A stretch of 64,000 nt of DNA, from assembly GCA_944319735.1 (NCBI GenBank), contig CALUEU010000004.1, positions 62,001 through 126,000 of the forward strand, written 5' to 3'. The notes under the pieces are model-generated. The model was not told where the DNA came from. It saw only the letters and a list, made by a program, of their open reading frames with translations, and did no database searches. Of the stretch, positions 12,005-13,877 are shown in pieces. The stretch comes from an uncultured Methanomassiliicoccus sp. GTDB lineage: Archaea > Thermoplasmatota > Thermoplasmata > Methanomassiliicoccales > Methanomassiliicoccaceae. Position 1 is the stretch's first letter, and every line of letters starts with the position of its first letter. The position numbers were made by a program, and so were the translations under genes.

Positions 12005-12973
12005 CTATAGATTATTGTCTTCTGATAGCTTCAAACTGTTGTCAGCTATTATCTTCAGATATAGCTTTTCCACAGCTTCAGACGGTGAAGATCCTTGCTG
12101 ATAGAGAATCATCTCAGCCTCAGCCTTGACGATTGGATCGACGCGAGCATAAACAGCTGCTGTTTTTCTTCTTTCTGTTTTGCATAGAACTTCTTCGCAG
12201 AGTGATTCGATATACTCGTTGTACTTCATCTCTTTTTTTCTGGCTAAAGCGCGTACCAAGTCTGTGGTTCCTGAGCCATATTGGGATGATTTTTTCTTCT
12301 TTTCTGCGAGGAATGGGTATCCAAGATTGATGGCAACTTCTTTGAGCACAGATTTCCTAGAGTCCATGTCTTTCGGTTTCAAATCTTCAGGGTTGATATC
12401 CATAATCTCAGAGACTACAGCTGGATTAGTGTAAACATAAACAAGATCTTTATTGAAATGGCTGGCAATTTTTTTCTCACATGGGATAGACACGTCGAGG
12501 AGCCGCTCCACCGCCGCGTTTTTCAATACTTCAAAATCATGATCTGACTGATCGATAAATTTAGCGCAGCCCATAAAATACTCATCAGCTCCCTGACCCG
12601 TTACGATACAATCTTCTTTAGATGCTCTGCAGACACAGAATAGCTGGAGTTCATATGAAATTGTGAATGGGTCTGTTGTACCGGTGGCAAGAATCATTTC
12701 TTTAATGATATCTTCAACGTTTTCTTCTGATATCTGTACATGAACCCACGGCAGCCCGAGTTTTTCGGAAAGGTCCCTGGCCGCAATAACATCGTACGAG
12801 TTGTCTGAGCCACAGGTGTAAAGGGTGACTGAATTAGCATATTCTTTGCTAATAGCTGAAACTAATCCAGAATCAAGTCCGCCGGAGAATGCCACGCCGA
12901 TATCCTTGTCTTTGACATTATCTTTGATGACGGTGACAATTGAATTTTCCAATTTGTCATATCTGAAAGACAT
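12005..12973 (-). CDS. Asparagine-synthase-like PP-loop protein with RelB/DinJ-like tail
   Basis: Residues 1-265 are an asparagine synthetase C-terminal type ATP pyrophosphatase domain. The P-loop is SGGLDS (30-35), and TGQGADEYFMG is the second ATP-binding motif. The usual N-terminal glutaminase domain is absent, so ammonia or another nucleophile is likely used. Residues 271-322 look like a RelB/DinJ ribbon-helix-helix antitoxin: ARVDPIVKAEAEMIL then SSPSEAVEKLYLKIIADN, close to the RelB pattern of a short strand, a helix and TPSEA-helix. No toxin gene is adjacent. It ends in TAG, with a TAA three codons on. The substrate is unknown. Confidence 0.8.
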   Translation of the reverse strand: MSFRYDKLENSIVTVIKDNVKDKDIGVAFSGGLDSGLVSAISKEYANSVTLYTCGSDNSYDVIAARDLSEKLGLPWVHVQISEENVEDIIKEMILATGTTDPFTISYELQLFCVCRASKEDCIVTGQGADEYFMGCAKFIDQSDHDFEVLKNAAVERLLDVSIPCEKKIASHFNKDLVYVYTNPAVVSEIMDINPEDLKPKDMDSRKSVLKEVAINLGYPFLAEKKKKSSQYGSGTTDLVRALARKKEMKYNEYIESLCEEVLCKTERRKTAAVYARVDPIVKAEAEMILYQQGSSPSEAVEKLYLKIIADNSLKLSEDNNL

Positions 12974-13088
12974 CGATAGAATGATTGTTTTGTATTATAT
13001 AACTGAAACGGACAAAGATCCTAAATTTTTGATTAATGTAAGAGGCAGATCCAGACTCATAATCTGGATTCCTCTCTTCTAAATTGTT

Positions 13089-13877
13089 TCAGTAGCCGCG
13101 TTTCTTGGGAATTATATCTTTTGCTACAGGTTTACCGTAAGGACACATCAGATTGCATAGGGTGCATTCTGTAAATCCTCTGTCGGAAACTCGGCGTATA
13201 TGTTCTTCCCAAGTCTTGTCAAGTTTAGGATCGAACTCATGCGCCACGACACATTTGTCATAGATGACTTTCTTTCCAGGTTCCACACCTTGAGAGGGTC
13301 CAGGAATAATTGCCTGATAGGGACAGGCATTCACACATAAAGATCCGTTTTTGCACAGGGGCTGCTCGGCACATAGATCGCGTGTAAACGGTTCATCTGG
13401 TTCTAATTCCATATCTGTCAGAACTGCAATCCAGCGGACACGTGGGCCGTATTCAGGTGTAATGACTTGGGTGTTGTGACCAATGAATCCAAGACCGGCA
13501 AGGGATGCTGCCGCCTTAGCATGTATGGTGGTAGAGGGAATCGCATCTGCGTTTTTCTCATCTCTCAGCCATTTACAGAAATACCATCCTTTGTTCTCTA
13601 CAATCTGATAGTAAAGATTGTAATATTCTGTATCCCCACCGCTGAAGTCTCCGCTGCCTGCTGTTGATACTGCGACATTCATACCCTCATCCCATATGAC
13701 CATGCCCATAATGATCAGTGATTTAGCTGAAGGCATGACTTCAGATGGTTTCTGCAGTCCTCTGTCATCTGGGAATGGCACATCCTCCATCTTTATGATA
13801 TCTGAAACTCCGAAAAGCTGAAATCCAAGCTCTTTGGATTTCCTACAAAGTTCTTCCTTTAAGCTGTTTTTTTCCAT
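13089..13877 (-). CDS. QueG-like [4Fe-4S] reductase family protein
   Basis: The order of parts resembles epoxyqueuosine reductase and reductive-dehalogenase-like proteins. The N-terminal substrate/cobamide-binding half contains PSAKSLIIMGM, KAAASLAGLGFIGHNT and YGPRVRWIAVLTD. Two [4Fe-4S] clusters follow: CAEQPLCKNGSLCVNACP and CTLCNLMCPYGKP. At 262 residues it is shorter than QueG and lacks its C-terminal HEAT-like part. Archaea generally do not make queuosine by this route, so the substrate is open. It stands alone, 115 bp from its neighbour. Confidence 0.8.
   Translation of the reverse strand: MEKNSLKEELCRKSKELGFQLFGVSDIIKMEDVPFPDDRGLQKPSEVMPSAKSLIIMGMVIWDEGMNVAVSTAGSGDFSGGDTEYYNLYYQIVENKGWYFCKWLRDEKNADAIPSTTIHAKAAASLAGLGFIGHNTQVITPEYGPRVRWIAVLTDMELEPDEPFTRDLCAEQPLCKNGSLCVNACPYQAIIPGPSQGVEPGKKVIYDKCVVAHEFDPKLDKTWEEHIRRVSDRGFTECTLCNLMCPYGKPVAKDIIPKKRGY

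Follow-up and report, generated by a model that had tools for sequence, protein, structure and literature searches.

The window, the whole stretch of 64,000 nucleotides that was analyzed, encodes a 322 amino acid protein in which an AsnB-type PP-loop synthetase carries a C-terminal RelB/DinJ-type ribbon-helix-helix (RHH) domain. We give an even chance to the reading that this is a PutA-like enzyme, which dimerizes via its tail and binds DNA, probably at its own promoter. The gene and its upstream region have the following parts:

12005..12973, minus strand: whole gene for the 322 amino acid PP-loop/RHH fusion protein, with an ATG start at 12973
12188..12973, minus strand: AsnB-type PP-loop synthetase domain, approximately residues 1-262 (PF00733, Foldseek, invariant columns)
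12161..12187, minus strand: short linker, residues 263-271, of variable length and sequence and low model confidence
12020..12160, minus strand: RelB/DinJ-type RHH tail, approximately residues 272-318 (homology, model, fold match)
12993..13002, minus strand: TATA-box-like TTATATAATA, 20-29 bp 5' of the start codon
13049..13069, no strand assigned: inverted repeat ATCCAGA-N7-TCTGGAT, between the stop of the upstream gene and the predicted promoter of the window gene

Taken singly, residues 272-312 of the window protein match RelB below threshold in every library (PF04221 0.027, TIGR02384 0.01, PDB 2k29 0.58), so a chance match is possible from one sequence. Scanned one by one, the homologous tails match TIGR02384 (RelB_DinJ) in 25 of 26 cases (best 2.2e-11) and PF04221 (Pfam RelB) in 23 of 26 (best 7.5e-8). 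The top PDB chains for the tail profile are E. coli DinJ 4ml0 (1.7e-4) and then RelB 2k29 (2e-4), and the tail aligns without gaps to residues 5-31 of E. coli RelB. The consensus of the homologues in other genomes is roughly RGSVINARVDPIVKxEAExILxxxGxSPSEAVExFYRKIIxDGG. AlphaFold models the whole protein (mean pLDDT 88) with an extended segment at 272-278 and helices at 280-292 and 297-318, the layout of an RHH domain; pLDDT falls under 50 at linker residues 267-270. A Foldseek search of 350,542 PDB chains with a model of the tail placed RelB and DinJ at ranks 1-8 (prob 0.63-0.96, E 0.2-1.9, weak values because only 42 residues are aligned) and the RHH domain of PutA (2ay0) at rank 9. The C-terminal tail is thus a RelB/DinJ-type RHH domain beyond chance, and conservation across relatives rules out a chance match or an annotation artifact. 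The preliminary description of this DNA had recognized an asparagine-synthase-like PP-loop protein fused to a RelB/DinJ-like tail and had proposed modeling that tail against RelB and DinJ; both halves of the fusion are borne out, and the model has the RHH fold.

PF00733 (Asn_synthase) matches residues 20-143 of the core at E=4.6e-21, and the closest folds found by Foldseek are E. coli AsnB 1ct9 (4.6e-13) and the beta-lactam/carbapenam synthetases. The protein contains SGGLDS at residues 30-35, TGQGADEY at 125-132 (GQGADEY at 126-132), and KKSSQYGS at 227-234. GQGADE, which is preceded by T in the window protein, is invariant in 19 aligned homologues, as is the Lys-rich KKSSQYGS block among aligned members; we take this block to sit in place of the catalytic Lys motif of AsnB. 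No glutaminase domain was found in the window protein, where the PP-loop motif already begins at residue 30. We predict that the core is an ATP-dependent, acyl-adenylate-forming synthetase of the AsnB fold without a glutaminase of its own. It shares the fold of the AsnB, beta-lactam synthetase, and CarA synthetase domains (TM to AsnB 0.69 by query) and the SGGLDS and G-x-G-x-D motifs of AsnB-type synthetases, with a Lys-rich QYGSG region replacing the Lys motif. In contrast to the window protein, AsnB has an N-terminal class II glutaminase and has Glu, in SGEGSDE, where the window protein has Gln. Against the AsnB equivalog model the window protein scores 78 bits, with a cut-off of 267. Identity with canonical AsnB was rejected; the window genome and five relatives contain no full-length match to the AsnB model over the cut-off. 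Since matches to asnS are also below cut-off (in G000, G030, G071, and G077), asparaginyl-tRNA is probably made via transamidation, and given this likely route a need for synthesis of free asparagine is not obvious.

The window genome also contains a paralogue without the tail (L002, G000:C4:137737-138477), which has the same motifs and a core that is about 34% identical. In Methanomassiliicoccales the neighborhood of this paralogue is conserved: it clusters with genes for endonuclease III, a FolC-like Mur ligase, and HypA/HypD-like proteins (several named by eye), opposite NikR and topoisomerase I. The tailed genes, in contrast, are mostly solitary and have no conserved neighbors. Near the tail-less paralogue, at about 127000-135300 of G000:C4 (L107 2-8269), there is a very large repetitive surface-type protein of over 2755 amino acids, adhesin-like with InlB-type repeats as judged by eye. 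In genome G110 the tail-less paralogue and a FolC-like Mur ligase form one open reading frame (L119 6678-8717, minus strand); this 679 amino acid protein matches PF00733 and Mur_ligase_M and _C and mirrors the conserved adjacency to the ligase elsewhere. Such neighbors and fusion partners of the tail-less relatives offer hints as to the substrate of the enzyme.

Orthologues of the window gene are 74% identical in G030 and 44-63% identical in about 50 further genomes. The named relatives of the window genome place it in Methanomassiliicoccales. A core homologue is present in 134 of 147 genomes of that order. The tail profile matches in 55 genomes of this order, all in family f5 except for the window's own genome; about 50 of the 55 have the C-terminal fusion, and 45 tails were read directly. 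Family f5 seems to be that of the Methanomethylophilaceae records. The setting is a gut-type group of methanogenic archaea. All 14 other genomes of the window genome's own family lack the tail. Across the phylum a core homologue is found at 1e-15 in 155 of 390 genomes, and the 20 distant homologues read from this set all lack a RelB-type tail. The preliminary description had asked whether the fusion recurs and whether all homologues have the tail as a normal component: it recurs, and the second idea is ruled out, as most homologues, and every other subfamily examined, lack the tail.

A tree of 83 core domains, built by maximum likelihood, unites all tailed proteins in a single clade on a long stem (SH-aLRT 100), which is nested within the tail-less paralogues. 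The tail label requires four changes on this tree, one of which, L064, is tail-less in appearance only (the contig ends there). The remaining changes fit a single gain and two clean losses, one in the clade L057/L060/L062/L063/L066/L103/L105 and one in L034/L035/L082. Downstream of the L034/L035/L082 genes there are neither tail remnants nor a split-off tail gene, and apparent read-through matches are not remnants. On this account the RHH domain was added a single time, in a Methanomethylophilaceae-like family, once a duplication had taken place from which the tail-less paralogue stayed behind in the ancestral operon. The window protein clusters with that of G030, a family f5 genome (support 91), but its paralogue L002 groups with the window genome's own family, so the gene was probably acquired horizontally from f5 by a genome of another family. 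Contamination is unlikely because the tailed gene and the paralogue are on one 167-kb contig.

The tail of close pairs is under purifying selection, with pairwise dN/dS mostly 0.04-0.25 (0.04-0.15 for the core). L055 and L058, from near-identical genomes, differ by about 21 mostly synonymous changes in 180 bases at gene positions of about +760 to +940, a patch that covers the tail, and by hardly any elsewhere; the patch looks like a gene-conversion tract. In genome G078 the tailed gene (L089 6004-7000) is split by an in-frame TAG. Members of the order can decode TAG as pyrrolysine, and this gene may be a pseudogene or be read through with pyrrolysine.

Because an RHH domain can fold only by intertwining with a second copy, the synthetase is expected to be dimeric through its tail; of the functional predictions, dimerization is the safest. 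The dimer would also bind DNA in members that keep the contact residues, the window protein included, most likely at the gene's own promoter. The enzyme would then repress its own gene, and occupancy by substrate or product would shift it between repressor and catalyst, as in a PutA-like trigger enzyme. PutA, itself an enzyme with a fused RHH domain, acts as a repressor of its own genes (PMC5293562). Trifunctional PutA and the window protein are alike in having a metabolic enzyme and an RHH domain in one chain; the RHH of PutA, however, is N-terminal, of another subfamily, and attached to a PRODH/P5CDH flavoenzyme, whereas the window protein has a C-terminal RelB-type domain on an ATP-PP-loop synthetase and its DNA binding is only predicted. 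The statement in the preliminary description that no established example is known goes too far where enzyme–RHH fusions in general are concerned, as PutA is one. For the particular pairing, full-text literature searches, of incomplete coverage, returned no description of a RelB-type RHH domain with a PP-loop synthetase, and as far as can be told the combination is undescribed.

In E. coli RelB, N5 and R7 touch bases and K13 and S28 touch the backbone; R7A, K13A, and S28L abolish operator binding and leave RelE binding tight (PMC2812701). The window protein has R277 for R7, K283 for K13, S298 for S28, and Y275 for N5. With ungapped placement on RelB, 44 of 45 tails have R7, 33 have K or R at position 13, and 43 have S28; row L059 was re-registered by hand for this count (N5 N, R7 C, K13 K). 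Position N5 is variable (N, D, S, T, H, I, V, or Y). One subclade of 12 members has Asp at N5 and Val or Leu at K13 and still retains the tail. Judging by its residues, this subclade is a natural negative control for DNA contact. That it keeps the tail, and that two clades lost the tail, indicates that DNA binding is inessential in some lineages.

The tailed genes mostly have a TATA-like box of their own near the start codon, at a similar position in relatives of the window gene. We infer that the window gene has its own promoter and a nearly leaderless transcript. On the same strand, 115 bp upstream, is a gene for an Fe-S protein (13089-13877, minus strand) that by eye resembles QueG and carries a double 4Fe-4S motif; this adjacency is not conserved at tailed genes elsewhere. 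The inverted repeat at 13049-13069 is a candidate operator or terminator; it is private to the window gene and not conserved in relatives. Comparison of the regions upstream of tailed genes gave no palindrome, dyad, or repeat common to them. Perfect dyads are in slight excess there, and likewise at tail-less paralogues, so the excess is unspecific; the enrichment seen in an initial count was gone after controls against the paralogues. With no operator common to these regions, autoregulation is argued by analogy with PutA, and dimerization alone is a close rival.

On that rival account the tail is a dimerization module only, which joins two PP-loop domains in place of glutaminase-borne oligomer contacts and does not bind DNA specifically. 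We regard it as a serious possibility, if somewhat less than probable. Conservation is higher in the hydrophobic core and the SPSEAV turn than at the base-contact position, the subclade without the K13 charge retains its tail, and upstream regions share no operator. A further point comes from another archaeal family (f24; L178, L179, and L181 in G232, G294, and G397), in which the PP-loop core has the KEOPS subunit Pcc1 fused C-terminally at the same place (PF09341 up to 9.9e-7). Pcc1 is a small subunit described as a putative dimerizing unit, and its position suggests repeated acquisition of C-terminal dimerizers. Against dimerization alone, R7, a residue that RelB uses to contact DNA and not to fold or to bind RelE, is kept almost throughout, even in the subclade, and so is the phosphate-anchoring S28.

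The PutA-like reading is favored by the RelB homology and fold, the kept R7/K13/S28, purifying selection, the single gain, the absent toxin segment, solitary genes with promoter-like sequence, and the PutA precedent. Counting against it are the lack of a shared operator, the variable N5 (Y here), the K13-less subclade, and the two tail losses.

The tail could instead recruit the enzyme to another macromolecule, either RNA or a protein bound via the RHH surface, which we consider unlikely. The Pcc1 fusion suggests that the core family has a role connected with tRNA, and a glycyl-tRNA synthetase-like gene (by eye, from sequence) adjoins the core in several other Thermoplasmatota; both hint at a core acting around tRNA. 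However, the tailed genes have no conserved neighbors that would name a partner, and what RelB-type RHH domains are known to bind is DNA and toxins.

It is very improbable that the tail acts as an antitoxin, through which the fusion would bind a toxin of the RelE/YafQ type and tie metabolism to the control of that toxin. The tail is like RelB/DinJ (PF04221, TIGR02384) in RHH sequence, fold, and R7/K13/S28, and RelBE-like pairs are present in some related genomes (e.g., G100, G071, and G066). RelB and DinJ, however, are free proteins of 80-110 amino acids with a toxin-binding segment and a cognate toxin, whereas the window RHH is the end of a 322 amino acid enzyme. The fusion tails stop about 5-20 residues past helix 2 and stand-alone RelBs of the same archaeal family mostly run 30-60 further, so the toxin-binding C-terminal segment is missing. 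In the window genome there is no ParE/RelE (PF05016) match at E<=1, none adjoining the gene, and no other RelB was found. No such toxin is present in many of the near-complete genomes with tailed genes (e.g., G030, G033, G034, G037, G072, and G081), and no toxin gene lies beside tailed genes in the neighborhoods viewed. These observations largely refute a toxin–antitoxin reading, which we reject, and they do not support the toxin link suggested in the preliminary description, which had proposed a search for a RelE-type gene. In the same archaeal family, a stand-alone RelB-type RHH domain is fused to an apparent nucleotidyltransferase with a GSRARGD motif (L209 648-1217, plus strand; L210 277-798, minus strand).

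Antitoxin domains are usually regarded as parts of toxin–antitoxin modules. Here such a domain is detached from its toxin and has long been fixed on a metabolic enzyme in about 50 archaeal genomes. The PP-loop family is uncharacterized and widespread in Thermoplasmatota, with three C-terminal fusion partners (RelB-type RHH, Pcc1, and FolC-like ligase). The natural variants, with contacts kept, contacts lost, or the tail lost, make what the RHH domain adds to the enzyme directly testable. Tentatively, and at somewhat less than even confidence, we propose a new archaeal class of trigger enzyme: a PP-loop amide-type synthetase that would have been turned into a transcription factor by capture of the RHH half of an antitoxin, with the toxin-binding half dropped. 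One subclade would later have lost the DNA contacts and kept the RHH domain as a dimerizer, and two lineages would have discarded it.
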